A DNA stretch of 64,000 nt from contig NZ_WGLM01000002.1 of assembly GCF_016125575.1 (NCBI RefSeq), forward strand, positions 186,001 to 250,000, written 5' to 3'. This DNA is from Limimaricola sp. (GTDB taxonomy: Bacteria; Pseudomonadota; Alphaproteobacteria; Rhodobacterales; Rhodobacteraceae). The notes below the pieces were generated by a model. The model was given only the letters and a program-made list of their open reading frames with translations. It did no database searches and was not told the origin of the DNA. The position numbers were made by a program, and so were the translations under genes. Of the stretch, positions 38,404-48,200 are shown piece after piece; position 1 is the first letter of the stretch; each line of letters opens with the position of its first letter.

Positions 38404-38418
38404 TGGCAGCCCGTAGGG
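38404..38418. repeat. attL, distal attachment-site repeat
   Basis: This 15-bp copy is identical to the tRNA-Glu 3' end (CCA, discriminator base, acceptor strand and four T-stem bases). The flanking bases differ from those beside the right copy, so the match ends exactly here. It marks the left boundary of the element. Confidence 0.85.
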
Positions 38419-38483
38419 TTGTCACATTTTCAAGCAAAATCAACGAACTAGCCCGTCCAACTGGGCTTAACCCCCCATTGAAA

Positions 38484-38506
38484 CGAAAGCGGAATTTTCG
38501 CTTTTG
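38484..38506. repeat. AT-rich hairpin near attL
   Basis: CGAAAGCG (38484-38491) and CGCTTTTG (38499-38506) pair over 8 positions with one wobble, around a GAATTTT loop. It lies between attL and the replication gene and is markedly AT-rich for this genome. It may be a terminator or part of an origin. Confidence 0.45.
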
Positions 38507-38539
38507 TCCAACACTTCCGCGCCCCTGCGGCGTGAAAAA

Positions 38540-38568
38540 CCCCGGTGCGCTGGCGGGCGCGACCGGGG
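38540..38568. repeat. GC-rich hairpin upstream of the replication ATPase
   Basis: CCCCGGTGCGC (38540-38550) pairs with GCGC (38557-38560) and ACCGGGG (38562-38568), with a single bulged G and a 6-nt loop. It lies about 50 bp before the first element gene and may act in transcription control or replication. Confidence 0.45.
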
Positions 38569-38616
38569 CTGGATTTGTGTCTGCTGAAAACACCTGCGCC
38601 ATTGTAGCGCGGGGGG

Positions 38617-40077
38617 ATGGTCATGGCAATGCTTGATCATCGCGGGTTCGACCTTTCCGACCTTTCGCTGTCCCGGCCCGAGGCGATCGACGCCTGGTTC
38701 CCGGCCCTGGGCCTGCCCGACACGGTGCAGCACGCGCCCGGCCAGTGGTCGGCGCTGGCGACGTGGCCCGGCGACCGGATGATTTTCTCCGACGAAACCG
38801 AGGGCGAGCTTGTCATGTGGCCCGATCATCGGCCGCACCGCGTGCAGGTCGAGTTTTCGGGCGACGTGCTGTGCGAGGGCATGGAGCGGCTCATCTGGGC
38901 GCCTGCGGAATTCGTGGCGCTGGCGATGGCCATGCGCGACGATGACGATTACCTCGACGAGGACCGCGCGCGGGCCTGGGTGGCGAACCTGCGGGGCACG
39001 CCCGAGCCTGTGGCGCCGTCGCCGTGGCGCTCTGCGGCCGATCTTGCCGGCGTGCCGGTGCCCGATCGGCGCTGGCTGATCGAGGGCCTTGTGCCCGATC
39101 GTAACGTGACCCTACTGACCGGCGACGGCGGGACGGGCAAGTCGCTGCTGGCGCTTCAAATGGCCGTTGCCGTGGCGACCGGCGCCGAATGGCTTGGCCA
39201 GCCGGTGCGCGCGGGCCGGGCCGTGGTCGTGTCGGCCGAGGATGACGCGGACGAGGTGCATCGCCGCTTGCATGGCATCGCGCTGGGGCTTGGCATGGGC
39301 CTTGGCGACATGCCTCGGCTTGTGTTCCGTTCGCTGGTCGGTGAGGGCGCGCTGCTGGCCGAGAAGGGCCGCACGGGCTTCAAGCCTACTGCCCTGCTGG
39401 CCGAGATCGAGGCGGCGGCCGAGGGGGCGCGCCTGGTGGTGCTGGACACGCTCGCGAATTTTTATCCCGGCGACGAGAACGACCGCGCGCAGACGACGCA
39501 TTTCGTTGACCTGATCAAGGGCGTGGCCCTGCGCGCCCGCTGCGCCGTTCTGTTGCTCGCGCATCCGTCCAAGTCGGCAATGGACAACGGCGCGGGCTAC
39601 TCGGGGAACACCGCGTGGAACAACGCCGTCCGGTCCCGCCTGTACCTCAAGCGAATCACGCGGCAGGACGGGGCCGAGGTGATCGAGCCAGACCCGGACG
39701 CCCGCGTGCTGCGCACCATGAAGGCGAACTACGGGCGCGCCGCCGGCGAGATGTCGCTGTCGTGGTGCGGCGGCCTTTTCGTGCCTTCCGCGCCCGAGAC
39801 AAGCCTTGATCGGGCAGCCGCGAACGCGAAGGCCGATCGGGTGTTTCTGGCGCTGCTGGACGCCCGCGAGGCGAGCGGCCGGCACGTCTCTCACAATCCC
39901 GGCCCGACCTACGCCCCGGCAGTTTTCGCGCGCGACGACGAGGCCGAGGGGCTTACCAAGCGGGCCCTTGCGGCGGCTATGGAGAGGCTCTTCGCGGCCG
40001 GCCGGATCGTGATCAAGACGCACGGATCGGGCGCTAAGGCACGCTCGCATATCGGCCGTGGAGGTGAGAATGAGTAA
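38617..40077 (+). CDS. RecA-fold ATPase, RepA/AAA_25-type replication protein
   Basis: A 486-residue protein. Residues about 1-135 form an N-terminal domain of unknown type. The ATPase core has Walker A TGDGGTGKSLLALQ (about residue 168), Walker B ARLVVLDTLANF and a VLLLAHPSKSAMDNGAGYSGNTAWNNAVRSRLYLKR region, as in RepA-like hexameric helicases of phages and plasmids. The C-terminal part resembles a winged helix (GLTKRALAAAMERLFAAGRIVI). It is the likely replication helicase of the element. Alternative starts at 38623 and 38629 are possible. No separate primase is seen. Confidence 0.8.
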   Translation: MVMAMLDHRGFDLSDLSLSRPEAIDAWFPALGLPDTVQHAPGQWSALATWPGDRMIFSDETEGELVMWPDHRPHRVQVEFSGDVLCEGMERLIWAPAEFVALAMAMRDDDDYLDEDRARAWVANLRGTPEPVAPSPWRSAADLAGVPVPDRRWLIEGLVPDRNVTLLTGDGGTGKSLLALQMAVAVATGAEWLGQPVRAGRAVVVSAEDDADEVHRRLHGIALGLGMGLGDMPRLVFRSLVGEGALLAEKGRTGFKPTALLAEIEAAAEGARLVVLDTLANFYPGDENDRAQTTHFVDLIKGVALRARCAVLLLAHPSKSAMDNGAGYSGNTAWNNAVRSRLYLKRITRQDGAEVIEPDPDARVLRTMKANYGRAAGEMSLSWCGGLFVPSAPETSLDRAAANAKADRVFLALLDAREASGRHVSHNPGPTYAPAVFARDDEAEGLTKRALAAAMERLFAAGRIVIKTHGSGAKARSHIGRGGENE

Positions 40078-40181
40078 GGTGCAACTAGGGTGCAACCCCC
40101 GGTGCAACCCCCCGTGCAACGGGGGTGCGCGACATACCCCTTATACCCCTAGGGTGTTGCACCCCCCCGTTGCACGGGGGG
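40078..40181. repeat. GGTGCAAC iteron cluster with two hairpins
   Basis: Four direct copies of (G/C)GTGCAAC start at 40078, 40089, 40101 and 40113, spaced 11-12 bp, about one helical turn. Two inverted copies, GTTGCAC(C/G), start at 40156 and 40169. The fourth direct copy and the second inverted copy each sit in a hairpin: CCCCCGT/ACGGGGG (40109-40125) and CCCCCCGT/ACGGGGGG (40163-40181). The cluster lies between the replication ATPase and terminase genes, where an origin or a packaging site would be expected. Confidence 0.7.
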
Positions 40182-40305
40182 AGGGTGCACACCTTGCCCG
40201 ATCTGGCCGGGCGCTGGGTTTGGTCCCAATGCCCCGGCGTTTTTTGAGGGGGGGGTTCGGGGGGGGCGCTTTCCCTTTCGCGCTGCGCGGCACGGAGGCG
40301 GCGGC

Positions 40306-41826
40306 ATGACCGGCAAGGCTTCAACCAAGGCGCTGAACTTTTTGTCCCGGCTTCGCATTCCCGAGGGGCCGAAGGCCGGCGAGCTGATGAAGCTGGCGCC
40401 GTTTCAAAAGCGGTTCGTCCGGGGCGCGCTGGCGGATGGCGTGAACGTCGCCGTCCTGTCGATCGGGCGCGGCAATGCCAAGACGGCGCTGTCGGCCGGG
40501 GTCGCCTTGGGCGCGGTGATGGGGAAATGGGACGCGCAGCCTCGGCGGGAAATCCTGATCGCAGCGCGGACGCGGGATCAGGCGCGGATTGCCTTCGATT
40601 TCGTCGTCGGCTTCATTCGCGGGCTGGCCGAGGCCGAGCAGGAACAATTCACGGTGCGGCGCTCGCCCCGGCTGGAGATCGAATTCGAGGGCGACGGCGG
40701 CGGGCACGTGATCAGGGCGATTGCGGCCGATGGCAAGACGGCGCTCGGGTCCGCGCCGACGCTGGTCCTGATGGACGAGCGGGGACATTGGGCCAAGGAT
40801 CAGGGCGACGCCCTCGAACATGCCCTTCTCTCGGGCATGGGCAAGCGCGGCGGGCGGGCGCTGATCATCTCGACCAGCGCAGCCGATGACGCGCATCCGT
40901 TTTCCGTTTGGCTCGATCAGGATCAGCCGGGCGTCTACCGACAGGAACACCGGCCCGCGCCCGGCCTGCCTGCGGACGATATTGCCAGTCTGAAAGAGGC
41001 GAACCCCGGCGCCGAATTCGGGATCGGCTCTAACCTGGAATGGCTGCAAGGGCAGGCGCGGCGGGCGATTGCGCGGGGTGGATCGACGCTGACGAGCTTC
41101 CGGCTCTACAACCGCAACGAACGCGTTTCGGCGGAAACGCGCGACGTTTTGCTGACCGTAGACGAATGGCTGTCCTGCGAAGTTGACGCCTTGCCACCGC
41201 GCCAAGGCGGGGTTGTGATCGGGATCGACCTTGGCGGCAGTGCCAGCATGACCGCAGCGGCGTTCTACTGGCCCGTGACCGGCCGAGTCGAGGCGCGCGG
41301 GTGGTTCCCCTCGCAACCGGGACTTCTCGACCGTGGGCAAGCTGATGGCGTCGGAAGCCGATATTCCGAAATGAGCGAACGGGGCGAGCTCACAACGCTG
41401 GGCGCGGCAACGGTGCCAGTCGCGGCTTGGCTGGGCGAGATTCTGCGCCACGTCGAAGGCGAGCAGATTACGGCGCTGGTGGCTGACCGATACAAGCAGG
41501 CCGAACTTGGCGAGGCGATGGACCGGGCCGGGGTTCGGTGTCCGATCGTCTGGCGCGGCATGGGATTCCGCGATGGCGGCGAGGACTTGGAAAGGTTCCG
41601 GCGCGCGGTCTTTGACGGCAAGGTTCTTTCGGCGCCGTCGCTGCTGTTGCGGTCCGCATTCGCGGACGCGGTTTGCCTTCGCGACCCGGCGAACAACCTG
41701 AAATTGGCGAAGGCACGATCGCTGGGCCGGATCGACGCGGCGGCGGCAACCGTTCTGGCGGTGGCCGAGGGCGCCCGCGTGACGGCCCGCCCGGCGCGGG
41801 CGGGCGGGGGGCTGGCATGGCTGTGA
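40306..41826 (+). CDS. terL: terminase large subunit
   Basis: A 506-residue packaging motor. The ATPase domain has an atypical Walker A (SIGRGNAKTALSAG), as in many HK97-type terminases, and Walker B TLVLMDERGHW. The C-terminal nuclease domain has VIGIDLGGSASMTAAAFYW with a metal-binding Asp, and VADRYKQAELGEAM. TerL pumps DNA into the prohead through the portal. It is followed by an overlapping HNH gene. No small terminase gene is seen upstream. Confidence 0.9.
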   Translation: MTGKASTKALNFLSRLRIPEGPKAGELMKLAPFQKRFVRGALADGVNVAVLSIGRGNAKTALSAGVALGAVMGKWDAQPRREILIAARTRDQARIAFDFVVGFIRGLAEAEQEQFTVRRSPRLEIEFEGDGGGHVIRAIAADGKTALGSAPTLVLMDERGHWAKDQGDALEHALLSGMGKRGGRALIISTSAADDAHPFSVWLDQDQPGVYRQEHRPAPGLPADDIASLKEANPGAEFGIGSNLEWLQGQARRAIARGGSTLTSFRLYNRNERVSAETRDVLLTVDEWLSCEVDALPPRQGGVVIGIDLGGSASMTAAAFYWPVTGRVEARGWFPSQPGLLDRGQADGVGSRYSEMSERGELTTLGAATVPVAAWLGEILRHVEGEQITALVADRYKQAELGEAMDRAGVRCPIVWRGMGFRDGGEDLERFRRAVFDGKVLSAPSLLLRSAFADAVCLRDPANNLKLAKARSLGRIDAAAATVLAVAEGARVTARPARAGGGLAWL

Positions 41827-42128
41827 GTCGCAAGGACTACGCCGCGCACTCACGGCGCGTCACGAAATCGCCTCGCTGGAAGGCGCTGCGGATGCAGGCG
41901 CTGGACCGCGACGGCTGGCAATGCGTCCAGTGCGGCGAGCGCCGCCGGCTGGAAGTGGATCACATCCTGCCCGTCCGCGATCGGCCGGACCTCAGCTTTT
42001 CCCTGTCAAATCTCCAATGCCTATGCGGGCGGTGTCATTCGCGAAAGACGCGGATCGAGATCGGCCTGGGGCAACCAAATCCCGCCCGGCAGGCCTGGCG
42101 GCAACTGGTCCGAATGGGCCGTAATTGA
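41817..42128 (+). CDS. HNH endonuclease
   Basis: A 103-residue nuclease starting MAVSRKDYAAHSRRVTKSPRWKALR. Zinc pairs are CVQCGE and CGRCHSRK, and the HNH core is LEVDHILPVRDRPDLSF with NLQCLCGRCHSRKT. HNH proteins next to TerL stimulate terminase cleavage and are needed for packaging in HK97-type phages and in cf-PICIs. The start overlaps the terL end by 10 bp. Confidence 0.92.
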   Translation: MAVSRKDYAAHSRRVTKSPRWKALRMQALDRDGWQCVQCGERRRLEVDHILPVRDRPDLSFSLSNLQCLCGRCHSRKTRIEIGLGQPNPARQAWRQLVRMGRN

Positions 42129-42145
42129 GCAGAAAGGATGAACGA

Positions 42146-43414
42146 ATGCTCGAAAGTGTGAAGATCGCCCGGCGTCAGTCGGAAATCCGCCAGAGCCTTG
42201 CGGCCCTGGTCGGAAAAGAGAGCGCGACCGAAGACGAGGTGCGCAAGATCGAGGAGCTCGACCGGGAATTCCGGTCGAACGAAACCCGGTATCGGGGCGC
42301 CCTGATCGCTGAGGATCAGGAGCGGCGCGAGGCCGGCGACGAGCTGGAAACGCGAAGCGACAAGGAATGGGCCGAGATGATGGCCGGCTTCGAACTGCGC
42401 CAGGTCGCGCTTGCCCTGGACGAGGGCCGGCAGCTCGACGGCAAGACCGCGGAAATCGTGCAGGAACTGCGCGCCGCCGGCGGGTTCCGGGGTATCCCGG
42501 TCCCGTGGGCCGCGCTGGAACGCCGGGCCGGCGAGACCGTCGCCAGTGGCACGCCTGACCCGATCGGCACGCGGCCGATCATCGATCGCCTTTTCGCCCA
42601 GTCGGCGGCGTCCCGCATGGGCGCGCAGATGATCGCGATCGATTCCGGCGCGGTCGAATGGCCGGTGACGACTTCGAGCGTAGCGGCCGGTTGGGCCGAT
42701 GGCGAGACGGCGAGCGTGGCCGGCCCGAGCGTCTACGCGACGACCGATCGGCCCTTGAAGCCCGAGCAGACGCTGGGCATCACGATGAAGGTCACGCGCA
42801 AGGCGATGAAGCAAACGGGCAGCGCGCTGGAGGCGGCCATTCGCCGGGACATGAACGGCGCGATCGGCGAGGCGCTCGACAGGGCGATTTTCCTCGGTTC
42901 GGGCAGCTCGGGCGAGCCTTTGGGCGTGGTCGCCGGCGCGGCGACCTACGGCATCACGTCGACTGCCTTCGACGCCGCGGCGAGCTATTCGGCGTTCCGG
43001 GCGGCGTTCGTGAGGTTCATGATCGCATCGGCGGCAAGCTCGCCGGCCGAAGTGCGGGTGCTGATCCGGCCGGAGATTTGGGACTACCTCGACGGCACGA
43101 TCGCTTCCGGCAGCTCGACAACGTGGGAGTGGGATCGGCTTATCAAGGCGGTGGTCGCGGGCAACGTGACCATGAGCGCGAACGCCCTTGCCGCGCCGAC
43201 CGGCTCGCCCGCCGCGGCATCGGCATTGCTGACGACCACGGCCGGCGGCGTGCCGCCGATCTTCGTCGGGACGTGGGGCGCGATCGACATGATCCGCGAC
43301 CCCTATTCGGACGCGGCGTCGGGGGGCCTGCGGCTGACCGCGCTGGCGACGATGGACGTGACCGTCTCGCGGCCGGCTCAGCTCCAGCTCATCACTGGGC
43401 TTCAGGTGGCGTGA
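42146..43414 (+). CDS. HK97-family major capsid protein
   Basis: A 422-residue protein. Residues 1-100 are predicted coiled-coil (SVKIARRQSEIRQSL to RREAGDELE), the scaffolding delta domain that the protease removes. The HK97 fold follows, with AIDSGAVEWPVTTSSVAAGWADGETA, ITMKVTRKAMKQ and DMNGAIGEALDRAIFLGSG, and the P-domain LIRPEIWDYL. The ATG at 42146 has AAGGA upstream. Its stop overlaps the protease start (TGATG). Confidence 0.93.
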   Translation: MLESVKIARRQSEIRQSLAALVGKESATEDEVRKIEELDREFRSNETRYRGALIAEDQERREAGDELETRSDKEWAEMMAGFELRQVALALDEGRQLDGKTAEIVQELRAAGGFRGIPVPWAALERRAGETVASGTPDPIGTRPIIDRLFAQSAASRMGAQMIAIDSGAVEWPVTTSSVAAGWADGETASVAGPSVYATTDRPLKPEQTLGITMKVTRKAMKQTGSALEAAIRRDMNGAIGEALDRAIFLGSGSSGEPLGVVAGAATYGITSTAFDAAASYSAFRAAFVRFMIASAASSPAEVRVLIRPEIWDYLDGTIASGSSTTWEWDRLIKAVVAGNVTMSANALAAPTGSPAAASALLTTTAGGVPPIFVGTWGAIDMIRDPYSDAASGGLRLTALATMDVTVSRPAQLQLITGLQVA

Positions 43415-44028
43415 TGGAGCAAGGCGGCGCGATCGGAGAGTTGGAACTCCGCCGGAAGGCCCGCGACGGATCGCGCCGCCTTCGCGGGAAATTTCCCTAT
43501 AAAAAAAGGGCAATCCTGAGCGATGGGGGCCGCACCGGCCGGCCGCGTAAGGAAGAATTCGCGCCTCATGCTTTCGCGTGGCGCATCAATCAACCGGATC
43601 AGGATATTCATCTCCTGATCGGGCACGACTACGGCAAACCGTTGGCGTCGCGCAGCGCCGGGACGCTGGAAATTCACGACGCGGCCGACGCGGTTATTTT
43701 CGACGCGACGATCACGCCAGAGCTGCAAGGCGCTCAGTATGTCCAAGATTTCTTCGCGGGTTTTGTTGCCGGTCTGATCGGGGGAATTTCGCCGGGATTT
43801 CGCATCCCGCCCGAGAGGGTGGCGCCCAAGGCCGAGGTGACGACCGAAGAACCGCCGTCCGAGGGGATGGCACTGATCCGGACGATATTCGAGGCGCTTC
43901 TCTATGAATTCAGCATGGTGACGGTGCCGGCCTACAAAGACACCACGGTTGAGGAACGCGGCGGCCTGATCCTGCCGCCCGATCCGGCCGAGGGCTTGCG
44001 GCGATCTCTCACGCGATGGAGGGCCTGA
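43414..44028 (+). CDS. HK97-family prohead protease
   Basis: A 204-residue serine protease with the herpesvirus-like fold. The predicted catalytic His is residue 71 (LIGHDYGKPLASRS) and Ser is residue 126 (GISPGFRI). The motif AGTLEIHDAADAVIFDATI is conserved in the family. It would remove the capsid delta domain during prohead maturation. It overlaps the capsid gene by one base (TGATG), an unusual order, since the protease normally precedes the capsid gene. Confidence 0.92.
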   Translation: MEQGGAIGELELRRKARDGSRRLRGKFPYKKRAILSDGGRTGRPRKEEFAPHAFAWRINQPDQDIHLLIGHDYGKPLASRSAGTLEIHDAADAVIFDATITPELQGAQYVQDFFAGFVAGLIGGISPGFRIPPERVAPKAEVTTEEPPSEGMALIRTIFEALLYEFSMVTVPAYKDTTVEERGGLILPPDPAEGLRRSLTRWRA

Positions 44029-44029
44029 C

Positions 44030-44584
44030 ATGACGACGACAATCAGTGAAACCGAGGCGGCTCCGATCGCCTATCCTGACCCGCCGGCGGGCCTGTCCAC
44101 GGCTGCGGCGGCGCTCGATCCTGACGCAATCTGGGCGCGGATCGAAGCCTATATCACGACGCGTTGGACGGCGCGCGATGTGGTCTGGGTGGTCGAGGGC
44201 GCGGGGCTTTGGGCGCCGCCCCTGACGCCCGCGACGGTGGCGACTGTCGAGGTTTGGGCCGACGGCGCCTGGAGCGCGGTCACGCCCGAGGCTTCGCCGG
44301 TGGGCGGCTACGATTTCGCGGACGATAGCTGGTATCGCGTCACCGCCAGCGTCGGCGGCGGGACCGTTCCGGCCGCGGTCCTGGAGGCGTTCCGGCGGCT
44401 GGCCGAGTATTCTGCCGCGATCGGCGATTTCGGCATGATGCAGGGCAAAGCGGGGTCAAACTCGTTCACCGGAAAGGTCGGAGAGATCGAGGCCAGCGGG
44501 ACGCGGGCGCCAATGTGGGCGGCGCGGGCGCTGCAACAATCCGGCGCGGCAGACCTGCTGCGCCGCTATCGGAGGGCTCAGTGA
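44030..44584 (+). CDS. gp6-like head-tail connector protein
   Basis: A 184-residue protein, starting one base after the protease stop. It has helical segments PAAVLEAFRRLAEYSAAIGDF and WAARALQQSGAADLLRRYRR around a beta-rich middle, a pattern fitting HK97 gp6-type adaptor proteins. The assignment rests on size, position between protease and portal, and this pattern; there is no sequence motif. Its stop overlaps the portal start (TGATG). Confidence 0.6.
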   Translation: MTTTISETEAAPIAYPDPPAGLSTAAAALDPDAIWARIEAYITTRWTARDVVWVVEGAGLWAPPLTPATVATVEVWADGAWSAVTPEASPVGGYDFADDSWYRVTASVGGGTVPAAVLEAFRRLAEYSAAIGDFGMMQGKAGSNSFTGKVGEIEASGTRAPMWAARALQQSGAADLLRRYRRAQ

Positions 44585-45654
44585 TGTGGCCATTTCGCAA
44601 GCAAAAAAACGAAACTCGGGCCAGCGGGACCGGTTACACTGCGGCAATCATGGCGGCGCGCGAAAGCTACATCGCCGGCGCCGCGGGCGTGGGCGAGCTG
44701 ACCGGGGCGGTGCAGACATGTGTGGGCTTGTGGGAAAGCGGCCTAGCCCTTGCCGATGTGCAGGGCACCGACCTGCTGACCCGCGCCGCGATGGCGATTG
44801 CCGCACGCGGGCTGGCCCTGCGGGGCGAGGCGGTGTTCCTGATCCGAGAAACGGGCCTGGTGCCGGTGTCCGACTGGGAGGTTTCGACCCGCGACGGCGT
44901 GCCGCGCGCGTATCGCCTGAGCTTGTCCGACGCCGGCGGCGGCCGGTCGCAGACGGCCCTTGCGGCCGAGGTGCTTCACTTTCGGCACGGCAGCGACGCG
45001 ACGGCGCCATGGACCGGCACGGCGCCGCTGCGCCGCGCGCAACTGACGGCCGGCATGTTGCAGGCGATCGAGGCCGCGCTCGCCGAAGTCTACGCGGACG
45101 CGCCGCTTGGCAGCCAGATCGTGCCCTACCCGGAGGCGACGGAACCTGAGAAAGAGCGCCTCGGCCGGGCGTTCCGGGGCAGCCGGGGGCGCGTGATCCT
45201 GCGCGAATCCGTCCAAGTCTCGGCGGCCGGCGGCCCGGCGCCGATGCAGGATTGGCAACCGCGCGACCTGTCCCCCGACCTCTCGAAGTCGCTGACAAGA
45301 GAGCACCTTGCCGGGGCGCGAGATTCGATTTGCGGGGTGTTCGGCGTCCTGCCGGCGCTTCTTAATCCGGCCACTACAGGGCCTATGGTGAGAGAAGCGC
45401 AAAGACACCTTGCGACGTGGGCCCTCCAACCGATTGCCATGCGCATCGCGGAAGAGGCCAGCGCCAAGCTGGGCGGCGAGGTGATGGTTGACACGCTGCG
45501 CCCGCTTCAAGCTTTTGATGTCGGCGGCCGAGCGCGGGCGCTGGGGGCGCTCATCACGGCGATGTCGGACGCGAAGGCGGCCGGGATCGAGGGCGAGGCG
45601 CTTAACAAACTGCTAACGCTGGTGAATTGGGGCGAGGGCGACCACGCCGCCTGA
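44584..45654 (+). CDS. phage portal protein (HK97 family)
   Basis: A 356-residue protein. The region TREHLAGARDSICGVFGVLPALLNP is the conserved portal stem/crown sequence with PALLNPATTGPMVREAQRHLATWALQP, matching HK97-type portals. The start at 44584 overlaps the previous stop. It is shorter than the common 400-450 residues, as in small satellite portals. The dodecameric portal is the DNA entry channel and terminase docking site. Confidence 0.88.
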   Translation: MWPFRKQKNETRASGTGYTAAIMAARESYIAGAAGVGELTGAVQTCVGLWESGLALADVQGTDLLTRAAMAIAARGLALRGEAVFLIRETGLVPVSDWEVSTRDGVPRAYRLSLSDAGGGRSQTALAAEVLHFRHGSDATAPWTGTAPLRRAQLTAGMLQAIEAALAEVYADAPLGSQIVPYPEATEPEKERLGRAFRGSRGRVILRESVQVSAAGGPAPMQDWQPRDLSPDLSKSLTREHLAGARDSICGVFGVLPALLNPATTGPMVREAQRHLATWALQPIAMRIAEEASAKLGGEVMVDTLRPLQAFDVGGRARALGALITAMSDAKAAGIEGEALNKLLTLVNWGEGDHAA

Positions 45655-45660
45655 GACGGG

Positions 45661-45674
45661 CAGGGCGCGCCCTG
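45661..45674. repeat. 14-bp perfect palindrome after the portal gene
   Basis: CAGGGCG and CGCCCTG are perfect inverted arms with no spacer. The palindrome lies 6 bp after the portal stop. Purpose unknown. Confidence 0.4.
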
Positions 45675-45797
45675 GGCTCATCTGCCGCCCGAAGCGCCCC
45701 GGCAAGTCGGGAAGTGCCGTTACAACACCGACAAGGCGCGGCTGGCTTCCTACCGGCGTGGCGCGGGCGGCGGGCGGGTTGCAGCGCAGCGCCGCCG

Positions 45798-45825
45798 GGG
45801 GCCGGTCCGAAAAAGGGCCGGCCCC
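45798..45825. terminator. terminator between portal and the convergent repressor gene
   Basis: GGGGCCGG (45798-45805) and CCGGCCCC (45818-45825) form an 8-bp stem with a 12-nt loop that contains AAAAA. On the plus strand it is followed by TACTTCTTTC. It ends at the stop codon of the XRE gene on the other strand, so it can stop both transcripts. Confidence 0.6.
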
Positions 45826-46049
45826 TACTTCTTTCGGAGGGCGACGCCGGGACCGTTGCCGTTTTCGGGCGTGAAGACGACGCCCGCCCCTTCAAGGGCG
45901 GCGCGGATCGCGGCGACGGTCGCTTCTCGCAAGTTTTCGCCGCGCTCAAACCTAGCGACTGTATCGGGTGAAACGCCCGCCAGTTGCGCAAGATCGCGGA
46001 CACCTAGGCCAGTTGCCGCGCGGGCCATTTTGCATTGCGTTGCGTTCAT
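45825..46049 (-). CDS. XRE-family repressor-like regulator
   Basis: A 74-residue helix-turn-helix protein (KMARAATGLGVRDLAQLAGVSPDTVARFERGENLREATVAAIRAALEGAGVVF). It is the only element gene on the minus strand and is divergent from the control genes, with two operator-like sites between them. It is a plausible lysogeny-type repressor. Confidence 0.85.
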   Translation of the reverse strand: MNATQCKMARAATGLGVRDLAQLAGVSPDTVARFERGENLREATVAAIRAALEGAGVVFTPENGNGPGVALRKK

Positions 46050-46050
46050 A

Positions 46051-46067
46051 TCGTAACCACGTTCTGA
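46051..46067. promoter_or_regulatory. operator site 1 in the XRE divergent region
   Basis: TCGTAAC, three bases, GTTCTGA. The arms match as inverted repeats with two mismatches and match site 2. It lies directly upstream of the XRE start (46049), where it could block XRE transcription. Confidence 0.6.
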
Positions 46068-46073
46068 AATAGC

Positions 46074-46102
46074 TTGACCGTTTCAGGGCCATGTCGTATC
46101 GT
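46074..46102 (+). promoter_or_regulatory. promoter of the integrase-side control genes
   Basis: TTGACC (46074-46079) and TATCGT (46097-46102) are spaced by 17 bp, a good sigma70-type pair. It is 34 bp upstream of the 46137 gene. Its -10 box overlaps operator site 2. Confidence 0.55.
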
Positions 46103-46115
46103 AACGATGTTATGA
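46099..46115. promoter_or_regulatory. operator site 2 in the XRE divergent region
   Basis: TCGTAAC, GAT, GTTATGA. The arms are inverted repeats with one mismatch. Together with site 1 the consensus is TCGTAAC-N3-GTT(A/C)TGA, with centres 48 bp apart. It overlaps the -10 box of the rightward promoter. Confidence 0.65.
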
Positions 46116-46136
46116 AACATAAGCAAGGACTACACA

Positions 46137-46355
46137 ATGACGAACCCGCATGACATTCCCGCCGACGCGCTTGAGCTTCTCGAAGACATCCGCATGCAGG
46201 CCGTCCACCTCAATGAGATGTTGTTCGCCGTAGATTTTATGGACAACTGCGCGCAGGACGAAATCAAGGTCAGAAGCGCCACAACGTCGCTGATCATGAT
46301 CGCCAAGTCGCTCAGCGAGAAGTTGCTGGCCGACCTTGACCGGGTAGCCGGATGA
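46137..46355 (+). CDS. small protein of unknown function
   Basis: A 72-residue acidic helical protein (MTNPHDIPADALELLEDIRMQAVHLNEML). No family is recognised. It has AAGCAAGGAC upstream as a ribosome binding site. It is the first gene downstream of the operator-controlled promoter and therefore a likely early or control gene of the element. Confidence 0.65.
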   Translation: MTNPHDIPADALELLEDIRMQAVHLNEMLFAVDFMDNCAQDEIKVRSATTSLIMIAKSLSEKLLADLDRVAG

Positions 46356-46386
46356 GCGCGGTCAGTCTGGCGCGGAACAATCCCGG

Positions 46387-46422
46387 TTGACGTGTTGCGC
46401 CTCTCACGCTATGTCTGTGAGA
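46387..46422 (+). promoter_or_regulatory. promoter with overlapping dyad upstream of the HTH gene
   Basis: TTGACG (46387-46392), 17-bp spacer, TATGTC (46410-46415). The dyad TCTCAC (46402-46407) and GTGAGA (46417-46422) straddles the -10 box, as an operator would. It lies 27 bp upstream of the HTH gene start. Confidence 0.55.
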
Positions 46423-46448
46423 AATCAATCACGACGAAGGACGATTAC

Positions 46449-46874
46449 ATGAATTCCGCTAATTTTGCCGAACGACTGGGGGTTTCGCAAGACAACCTCC
46501 GAGACTGGCGCCGCCGCGGCGTATCGCTTGGTGGCGCTGCGGTGAACGGCCGGGTTGATTTTTCCGACTTCGACCTGATCGCCGCGCGCGTCATGATTAA
46601 CCTGGCCCGCGCGGCCTTCGACCTGCCTGACGCATGGCGCGCGGCGACCGTAGTCGCGCCGTGGGTGGCTTCCGCGCTCAACGTCAAGGTGCCCACCGAT
46701 CGGAACGTGACCGCGAGCGGCGAGCGTCCGCGATTCGCCGTGAAGACGCCCGCCGGCGTGCACCTGCGTGCCAGTTTGGAAACGCTGGCCGATCTGGATT
46801 TTTCTGTTGCCTCAGTGATCCTGATCGACCGCGTGACCGACGCGGTTCGCGCCGAAATGGAGGCCGACGACTGA
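46449..46874 (+). CDS. helix-turn-helix DNA-binding protein
   Basis: A 141-residue protein. The N-terminus (NFAERLGVSQDNLRDWRRRGVSLGG) is a MerR-like helix-turn-helix that resembles excisionase/AlpA-type regulators. The rest has no recognised domain. AAGGA precedes the ATG at 46449. In satellites such genes control integrase/excision and replication. Its stop overlaps the next start (TGATG). Confidence 0.7.
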   Translation: MNSANFAERLGVSQDNLRDWRRRGVSLGGAAVNGRVDFSDFDLIAARVMINLARAAFDLPDAWRAATVVAPWVASALNVKVPTDRNVTASGERPRFAVKTPAGVHLRASLETLADLDFSVASVILIDRVTDAVRAEMEADD

Positions 46875-47053
46875 TGGCCCAGCCGCGCGCCGCATTGAAG
46901 CAATCCGACCTGACCCGCTACGCCAAGGCGATGCGGGCGGCTGGAATTGCCGAGTGGCGCGTGGAGGTGCAGCCGGGAGGCAAGGTTACGATCATCGCCG
47001 GAAAGCTGGACGAGAAGCAGGCCGGTCCCGATCCCGACGAGCTGCTCAAATGA
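46874..47053 (+). CDS. small protein upstream of the integrase
   Basis: A 59-residue protein (MAQPRAALKQSDLTRYAKAMRAAGIAEWRVEVQPGGKVTI...). A helix and a short beta hairpin are predicted. It overlaps both neighbours (TGATG and ATGA), so it is co-translated with the integrase. A directionality role is possible but not shown. Confidence 0.65.
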   Translation: MAQPRAALKQSDLTRYAKAMRAAGIAEWRVEVQPGGKVTIIAGKLDEKQAGPDPDELLK

Positions 47054-48105
47054 GGCGGCGCAACCGATTCCCCGGCGTCCGCAAGAACGTGGTCAAGGGC
47101 CGCGTTTACTGGCGTTTCGAGGCCGGCGATTTCCGGTGTAACCTGCCCGGCCCGTATGGCGGCCCCGAGTTTCTGGCGGCCTATGAGGCGGCCTTGGAGG
47201 GTGCGAGGGCGCCGCGCTCGACGGCCGAACCTGACACGGTGGCATGGCTGATCGAGCAATACCTGGGCAGCCTGAAATTTGCCAATTTGTCGCCGTCTCG
47301 CAAGCGCAGCATCCGGGGCGAACTGGACTGGTTGCGCGAGACTGCTGGCAAGTATCATTTCGCCCGCCTTGAGGTGCGGCACGTCGAAGCCCTCATGGCC
47401 AAGAAGGCCGGCCCGACCGCGGCGAACACCGTCAAGAAAAACATGTCGATGCTGTTCAATTTCGCGGCAAAGAAGCTGGGATACATCGGCCCGAACCCGG
47501 CAAAATTTGCCGAGCGCATGAAGGTCAATCCGGACGGCTACCACACCTGGACCGATGCAGAGGTTGACCGTTTCCTAGCCCGCCACGGTGCCGGATCGAC
47601 GGCGCGACTGGCGGTGCTGTTGGCCCTGAACACGGGCATGGCGCGGCAAGACCTGTGCCGCGTCGGCTGGCAGCACGTCAGCGCCGGCCGGATTGCCTAC
47701 AAGCGTGGCAAGACGAGCGTCGCGGCCGATCTGCCGATCCTGCCCGACCTGGCGGCCGAACTTGCGCTGATCCCGTCCGGGCGGCTGCTATTCCTCACGC
47801 ACGGCGACGGGAAGCCATACAAGCCCGAGACGCTGGGAAACTGGTTCCGAGACCGGTGCAGAGAGGCAGGCGTGCCGGGTTCGCTGCATGGTCTGCGCAA
47901 GGCCGGCGCGACCCGCCTCGCCGATGCCGGTGCCTCGAATTGGGAAATCGCGTCATACCTCGCACACGCCGACACAAAGCAGGCGGACGTTTACACGAAG
48001 AAGGCGAACCGCGCCAAGCTGGCGGATTCAGGGTTCGCCAAGCTCTCCAACGTGTCCAACTTTCCCGATCCGTTGGACAGAAAGGCAGGAAAAGGCAATG
48101 AATAA
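47050..48105 (+). CDS. int: tyrosine-type integrase
   Basis: A 351-residue phage-type integrase. The N-terminus (RNRFPGVRKNVVKGRVYWRFEAG) is an arm-binding domain. The catalytic residues are Arg199 (NTGMARQDLCRVGW), His280 and Arg283 (HGLRKAGATR), His306 (LAHADT) and Tyr315 (DVYTKKAN). Its stop is 20 bp from the tRNA-Glu 3' end. It would recombine attP with the tRNA attB. Confidence 0.95.
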   Translation: MRRRNRFPGVRKNVVKGRVYWRFEAGDFRCNLPGPYGGPEFLAAYEAALEGARAPRSTAEPDTVAWLIEQYLGSLKFANLSPSRKRSIRGELDWLRETAGKYHFARLEVRHVEALMAKKAGPTAANTVKKNMSMLFNFAAKKLGYIGPNPAKFAERMKVNPDGYHTWTDAEVDRFLARHGAGSTARLAVLLALNTGMARQDLCRVGWQHVSAGRIAYKRGKTSVAADLPILPDLAAELALIPSGRLLFLTHGDGKPYKPETLGNWFRDRCREAGVPGSLHGLRKAGATRLADAGASNWEIASYLAHADTKQADVYTKKANRAKLADSGFAKLSNVSNFPDPLDRKAGKGNE

Positions 48106-48125
48106 CAATAGCTTAGCGGAAGAAA

Positions 48126-48140
48126 TGGCAGCCCGTAGGG
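48126..48140. repeat. attR, attachment-site repeat inside tRNA-Glu
   Basis: The 15-bp copy identical to 38404-38418 forms the 3' end of the tRNA gene. Integration therefore regenerated an intact tRNA. Confidence 0.85.
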
Positions 48141-48200
48141 GAGTCGAACCCCTCTTTTCAGGTTGAAAACCTGACGTCCTAACCGATAGACGAACGGGCC
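48126..48200 (-). tRNA. tRNA-Glu (anticodon TTC)
   Basis: On the minus strand a complete 75-nt tRNA can be folded. Acceptor arms are GGCCCGT and ACGGGCT, with a G discriminator base and an encoded CCA. The anticodon loop reads TTTTCAA between GTCAGG and CCTGA arms, and the T loop TTCGACT sits in an AGGGG/CCCCT stem. The gene is the integration target of the adjacent element. Confidence 0.95.

Follow-up and report, generated by a model that had tools for sequence, protein, structure and literature searches.

A probable capsid-encoding phage satellite in a tRNA-Glu gene of Limimaricola sp., from a distinct alphaproteobacterial lineage

The element considered here, a putative capsid-encoding phage satellite, lies in a stretch of 64,000 nucleotides from Limimaricola sp. 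(Rhodobacteraceae; contig NZ_WGLM01000002.1, positions 186,001 to 250,000 of the forward strand), hereafter the window. Within it, an exact 15-bp repeat, TGGCAGCCCGTAGGG, occurs at 38404-38418 and again at 48126-48140, enclosing 9.7 kb. The right copy forms the 3′ end of a tRNA-Glu(TTC) gene on the minus strand, found intact by ARAGORN, and the tyrosine integrase gene ends 20 bp away from it. Read from the left repeat, the genes encode an AAA_25 ATPase, the large terminase subunit (TerL), an HNH endonuclease, a major capsid protein, a protease, a connector, a portal, a helix-turn-helix (HTH) regulator, small proteins, one of them MerR-like, and the integrase. The bracketing by TGGCAGCCCGTAGGG is not a matter of chance, since the window element and 25 close relatives all show repeats of a tRNA end (15-55 bp) at nearly equal spacing. 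Profiling of the window proteins against PHROGs and Pfam, together with the searches described below, gives the following features:

38404-38418: attL, left copy of the 15-bp core TGGCAGCCCGTAGGG; exact repeat, in an arrangement that recurs in the 25 close relatives
38617-40077, plus strand: replication ATPase, AAA_25 / RepA-like, of primase-helicase type (Pfam AAA_25, E=1e-40; phrog_906, DNA polymerase/primase)
40221-40233, plus strand: 13-bp DNA motif TGGTCCCAATGCC, beginning 85 bp before the terL start and conserved among relatives
40306-41826, plus strand: terminase large subunit with ATPase and nuclease domains (phrog_9, E=1e-57; Pfam TerL_ATPase and TerL_nuclease)
41823-42128, plus strand: HNH endonuclease adjoining TerL (Pfam HNH, phrog_144), kept in the relatives that hold this region
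42146-43414, plus strand: HK97-type major capsid protein (Pfam Phage_capsid, phrog_617); its ATG coincides with the start of the family alignment
43414-44028, plus strand: prohead protease, peptidase S78 (Pfam Peptidase_S78, E=1e-14; phrog_80)
44030-44584, plus strand: head-tail adaptor, gp6-like (the connector), from an AlphaFold fold match
44584-45654, plus strand: portal protein (Pfam Phage_portal, E=1e-14; phrog_12)
45825-46049, minus strand: HTH repressor-like regulator, divergent from the right-hand genes (Pfam HTH_31/HTH_3), at the same place in several relatives
46137-46355, plus strand: open reading frame for a small protein without assigned function, for which no relatives were found
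46449-46874, plus strand: MerR-like winged-helix protein (Pfam MerR_1, E=3e-5; weak phrog_57, terminase small subunit, E=0.005)
46874-47053, plus strand: 59-aa protein adjoining the integrase, conserved in four elements directly before that gene
47050-48105, plus strand: tyrosine integrase (Pfam Phage_integrase; phrog_1, E=7e-37)
48126-48140: attR, right copy of the 15-bp core, lying within the 3′ end of the tRNA; exact repeat
48126-48200, minus strand: tRNA-Glu(TTC), intact, the integration target (ARAGORN)

An earlier note, made from the letters of the window alone, had described the repeat around 9.7 kb, the integrase beside an intact tRNA and the genes for TerL, HNH, capsid, protease, connector, portal and integrase, and all of this holds: both repeat copies are exact, and the genes are intact and backed by PHROGs or Pfam. 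The connector stands apart, as it matches no PHROGs or Pfam family and is backed by its fold. Its AlphaFold model (predicted local distance difference test score, pLDDT, 89) finds its best match in the neck adaptor of the Rhodobacter capsulatus gene transfer agent (GTA), with Z 10.7 and 4.1 A over 148 residues, followed by the adaptors of T5-type and Agrobacterium phages, and this predicted structure places the connector among phage neck (head-tail) adaptors. The profiles also add to the earlier list the AAA_25 ATPase, the divergent HTH gene and the MerR-like protein, which is possibly a regulator or, judging from its weak terminase match, a small terminase. The 59-aa protein is by its position a candidate excisionase, and the capsid gene has a further possible start, a TTG at 42125. 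As the note had also stated, no tail, lysis or small terminase (TerS) gene is detectable in the window element with PHROGs and Pfam.

The element belongs to a widespread family. The capsid is found at ≥53% identity in 39 of 395 Rhodobacteraceae genomes, sampled at one per genus, below which there is a gap down to about 31%; four of the sampled genomes contain two close copies each. In a class-wide set of 385 genomes holding few Rhodobacteraceae, a capsid match at E<1e-20 is present only in the window's genome and in one genome of another family. The surroundings of 39 places, up to 20 kb each, were searched for repeats of a tRNA 3′ end, and 26 close-family elements including that of the window proved to be att-bounded, with repeats of 15-55 bp and lengths of 9,317-11,147 bp (mean 10.3 kb). 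The note had proposed to look for relatives at tRNA-Glu; they occupy not this gene alone but 11 tRNA targets, namely Glu, Cys, Phe, Thr, Arg(CCT), Arg(TCT), Asn, Leu, Lys, Ser(TGA) and Ser(CGA). When these sites are placed as labels on the capsid tree, 14 changes are required against a shuffled mean of 13.5; the labels are scattered as if shuffled, and integration and head modules therefore exchange freely. The integrase lies at the right end beside the tRNA in most elements, and others carry a different integrase at the left end.

Across the close relatives, the order TerL-HNH-capsid-protease-portal is kept, and the head genes are under purifying selection, with ratios of nonsynonymous to synonymous substitution (dN/dS) of 0.13-0.48. 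The accessory genes (111 proteins scanned in the relatives) encode replication proteins (primases and initiators), integrases, HTH regulators, connectors and a few orphans. Among the families listed for these proteins, the 25 most frequent of 28 in Pfam and the 25 most frequent of 80 in PHROGs, none is of tail, tape-measure or lysis type. Four more distant tRNA-bounded elements (L099, L100, L101 and L103; 8.6-10.8 kb), whose capsids are ~28-30% identical, are probably further satellite lineages; the capsid and portal of L101 bear more resemblance to GTA proteins and to those of the Paracoccus siphophage Shpa.

Phages offer few counterparts. The comparison of capsid and portal with phage sets that the note had called for gave, among 50,697 phage records, a capsid identity of 31% at best and no match at E 0.01 for the portal or the adaptor; TerL is ~29% identical to that of HK97-type phages, and no phage matches the element at near identity. 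In IMG/VR, by contrast with the phage records, a capsid protein search yields 30 contigs at ≥59% identity and a capsid profile search >500 contigs, those holding the 80 best matches being mostly 4-15 kb long. One PLSDB record has a relative, a 1.6-Mb replicon of Pseudorhodobacter turbinis. A literature search found no paper describing the lineage, and the Charybdis elements (PMC12324425) are unrelated elements of 4.6 kb. A family member (L033) is also carried by Rhodobacter capsulatus DSM 1710. Its left flank apparently encodes a second integrase beside the same tRNA-Thr repeat, which suggests tandem elements in this strain.

A conserved DNA motif precedes the packaging genes. TGGTCCCAATGCC is found upstream of terL in 112 of 122 relatives (≤3 mismatches), most often 61-97 bp before the start, and weaker conserved blocks come after it. 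Translated, it would give GPNA within an extension of TerL in many relatives. Nevertheless, in 43 of the 112 cases the motif lies in another frame, is cut off by a stop or lacks a start codon; third codon positions are nearly invariant, and 111 of the 112 copies have GGT and AAT, codons whose usage in TerL is 13% and 29%. The fixed codons and the non-coding copies rule out mere coding conservation of a TerL extension and show the motif to be a signal at the DNA level. A scan of IMG/VR with the motif and its spacer retrieved at least 120 contigs, with a satellite TerL 44-112 bp downstream in 65 of the 80 examined. Its position suggests a candidate cos/packaging site. Between the ATPase gene and the motif, GC-rich inverted repeats at 40102-40190, with similar hairpins there in several relatives, are probably a terminator ahead of the packaging operon.

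At the head-tail interface, exactly one adaptor type is present in 25 of the 26 att-bounded close elements: some have the window type, which lies between protease and portal, and the others a second type located before terL. The second adaptor occurs in 11 relatives; in 9 of them its sequence resembles the adaptor encoded by the GTA cluster in the window's genome (up to 34%, E=1e-21). Some relatives add a stopper (head closure Hc1) between TerL and HNH, drawn from two unrelated families. The phrog_25 stopper is 42-52% identical in five elements to gp9 of Shpa, where the gp9 gene sits directly after the adaptor and before the tail genes, and it also matches, at 42% identity, the stopper of the R. 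capsulatus siphophage RcapNL; the phrog_161 stopper is ~39% identical to stoppers of other phages. This pattern is what would be expected if the heads must fit helper tails, and the two unrelated stopper families suggest several phage helpers.

The closest described systems are the capsid-forming phage-inducible chromosomal islands (cf-PICIs), which in the summarised accounts of Alqurainy et al. 2023 (PMC10690885, PMC10803314, PMC11389934) encode their own capsids and average 14 kb. As far as those summaries go, cf-PICIs share with the window family an integrated state, the lack of tails, and genes for capsid, protease, portal, connectors, TerL and HNH. They differ, according to the same accounts, in their hosts (mainly Enterobacteriaceae, Firmicutes and Pasteurella as opposed to Rhodobacteraceae) and in size, the ~10 kb of the window family being set against that 14-kb average. 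Relative to the cf-PICIs as summarised, the window family also has no recognisable TerS, an adaptor in two interchangeable forms and an optional stopper. Membership in the cf-PICIs, with their three described clades, is not claimed, because TerS is unrecognised and the likeness is one of description. The Streptomyces satellite MulchRoom, whose helper is virulent, likewise encodes terminase, portal, capsid and head-tail adapter, and its tail is thought to be helper-derived (PMC10690885). Unlike the window element, with its replication ATPase, MulchRoom is actinobacterial and without a primase gene, and it has genes for a small terminase and for a scaffolding protein, whereas no counterpart of either is recognised in the window element (PMC10690885). 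Among marine satellites, PICMIs (phage-inducible chromosomal minimalist islands), VEIMEs (virion encapsidated integrative mobile elements) and tycheposons are also small integrative satellites of aquatic bacteria, but PICMIs have no capsid genes and are packaged in the helper's capsid (PMC10803314).

HK97-like siphophages and Shpa share with the satellites the families of TerL, HNH, protease, HK97 capsid, portal and adaptor, and with part of them the stopper. These phages, however, possess full tail genes and TerS in 38-40 kb, and the order is portal-protease-capsid in Shpa versus capsid-protease-portal in the satellites, whose capsid and portal are far diverged. The Rhodobacter GTA has HK97-type head genes, the same hosts and the closest adaptor fold, but it has its own tail and no integrase or att sites, and the GTA proteins of the window's genome show almost no sequence similarity to those of the window element.

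Taken together, integrase and att repeats mark the window element as a discrete integrated unit; it has its own capsid, protease, portal, TerL, HNH and connector genes; tail, tape-measure and lysis genes are missing across the lineage among the families listed; and a replication module of the kind seen in cf-PICIs is present as the AAA_25 / RepA-like ATPase in the window and as primases and replication initiators in relatives. These are the features of a capsid-encoding satellite. The element is thus very probably an integrated, cf-PICI-like satellite of a distinct alphaproteobacterial lineage that borrows its tails, and the comparative data on relatives support the proposal of the earlier note that a tail-less, capsid-encoding satellite forms a separate lineage in Rhodobacteraceae. 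We infer that it depends on a helper. During the growth of a tailed phage in its host cell, the element would excise and replicate with its own ATPase, TerL and HNH would cut its DNA near the conserved motif upstream of terL, and this DNA would be packed into small capsids that the element builds with its own capsid, protease and portal proteins. The element's own adaptor would close the head, to which the helper's stopper and tail could then dock; exit would rely on helper-encoded lysis, and a new cell would be entered through the helper's tail, with integration into a tRNA gene.

Several points weigh against this interpretation. No helper, excised attP, packaging or transfer has been observed. 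No small terminase is recognisable in the window with PHROGs and Pfam or among the families listed for relatives, which leaves the recognition of a packaging site unexplained. The motif could be a late promoter rather than a place of cleavage. The window element has no stopper gene, and there is no empty integration site to show, the window's genus being represented by a single genome in the collection.

HK97-type head genes and an integrase beside a tRNA can also resemble the remnant of a prophage, and the ~29% identity of TerL to HK97-type phages would fit a prophage that had lost its tail and lysis genes in the window strain. This is very hard to reconcile with the same tail-less plan of 9.3-11.1 kb, shared by more than 20 genera at 11 different tRNA targets and with genes under purifying selection, or with phage records that hold no capsid above 31% identity. 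Relatives at these sites do not carry the missing tail and lysis genes, and since they recur with the same tail-less architecture, decay is rejected. The note had named tail or lysis genes adjacent in other strains as the observation that would speak for decay, and none came to light. A 42-kb IMG/VR contig (L026, L104, L106; G395), in which a satellite head module lies directly beside tail genes, might be taken for a complete phage; it is a tandem of a satellite and a separate P2-like prophage at tRNA-Val. The prophage has its own 31-bp tRNA-Val repeat, tape measure, tail fibre and endolysin, as well as P2-type portal, scaffold and capsid genes by sequence inspection, and the two apparently share one integration site. 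Its tail region also includes a reverse transcriptase resembling that of a diversity-generating retroelement. An independent virus, very small and either tail-less or podovirus-like, with unrecognised entry genes would agree with the listing of such contigs as viruses in IMG/VR and with members that look circular and have no integrase. The space outside the head genes, however, is taken up by genes for integrase, replication and small regulators, which vary from one element to another, and no conserved family is left for a shared tail or entry protein. The role of adaptors and stoppers, moreover, is to connect a head to a tail; such a virus is accordingly a most improbable explanation.

Tails could instead come from the host GTA, whose release would spread the element. 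Were GTA tails to complete the heads, a domesticated, normally non-replicating particle would become the vehicle of a selfish replicating element. We regard this as unlikely, if slightly less so than the two preceding accounts. In its favour, of the 35 satellite-bearing genomes tested, 34 have a GTA_TIM gene, among them that of the window; the closest solved fold of the window adaptor is that of the R. capsulatus GTA; in 9 of 11 relatives, as given above, the alternative adaptor resembles the one encoded by the GTA of the window's genome; and only two PF04860 portals exist in that genome, the GTA's and the satellite's. The co-occurrence nevertheless says little, because GTA clusters are near-universal in Rhodobacteraceae. 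One satellite-bearing genome (G343) has no GTA_TIM match, the stoppers resemble those of siphophages, and their two unrelated families point to several phage helpers. The GTA cluster of the window's genome (L184, G000 C5:842500-862000) comprises portal, protease, capsid, adaptor and a 1,320-aa GTA_TIM protein; the tape-measure family phrog_28, the one family searched, is absent from this genome. An origin of the element from the host GTA is rejected by sequence: against the genome's own cluster, capsid, TerL and adaptor give no significant blastp match and the portal only E=0.002.

With a close relative in about 1 in 10 sampled Rhodobacteraceae genera, the satellites appear to form a large lineage of virus parasites that has received little notice. 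Most descriptions of capsid-encoding satellites to date concern enterobacteria and Firmicutes, and a separate lineage of this frequency, catalogued as viruses, would alter the reading of small aquatic viral genomes. It also offers a natural experiment on head-tail compatibility, in which a single capsid lineage comes with adaptors of two types and with stoppers of two unrelated families, one of which is also found in known siphophages. R. capsulatus DSM 1710, a strain with a member of the family, belongs to a laboratory species that has phages and a GTA, and helper dependence is therefore directly testable there.

Some relatives appear to exist outside the chromosome. No contig of the first IMG/VR set is circular by end repeats, and circular ones occur only in the set found with the motif. 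L217 has a 144-bp terminal repeat that gives a 9,970-bp circle with a RepL-like protein, and in L230 (9,549 bp), which encodes a PemK-like toxin, the TerL reading frame is complete only when the two ends of the contig are joined. Both hold the head module and no recognised integrase; plasmid-like relatives therefore seem to exist, and the two contigs point to extrachromosomal forms and not to the excision of integrated elements. A third IMG/VR contig, L285 (9,462 bp, 123-bp terminal repeat), carries the family TerL and motif with a truncated HNH gene, and a 1,236-aa protein without a Pfam match occupies the place of the remaining head module; it is either a variant or an assembly chimera.

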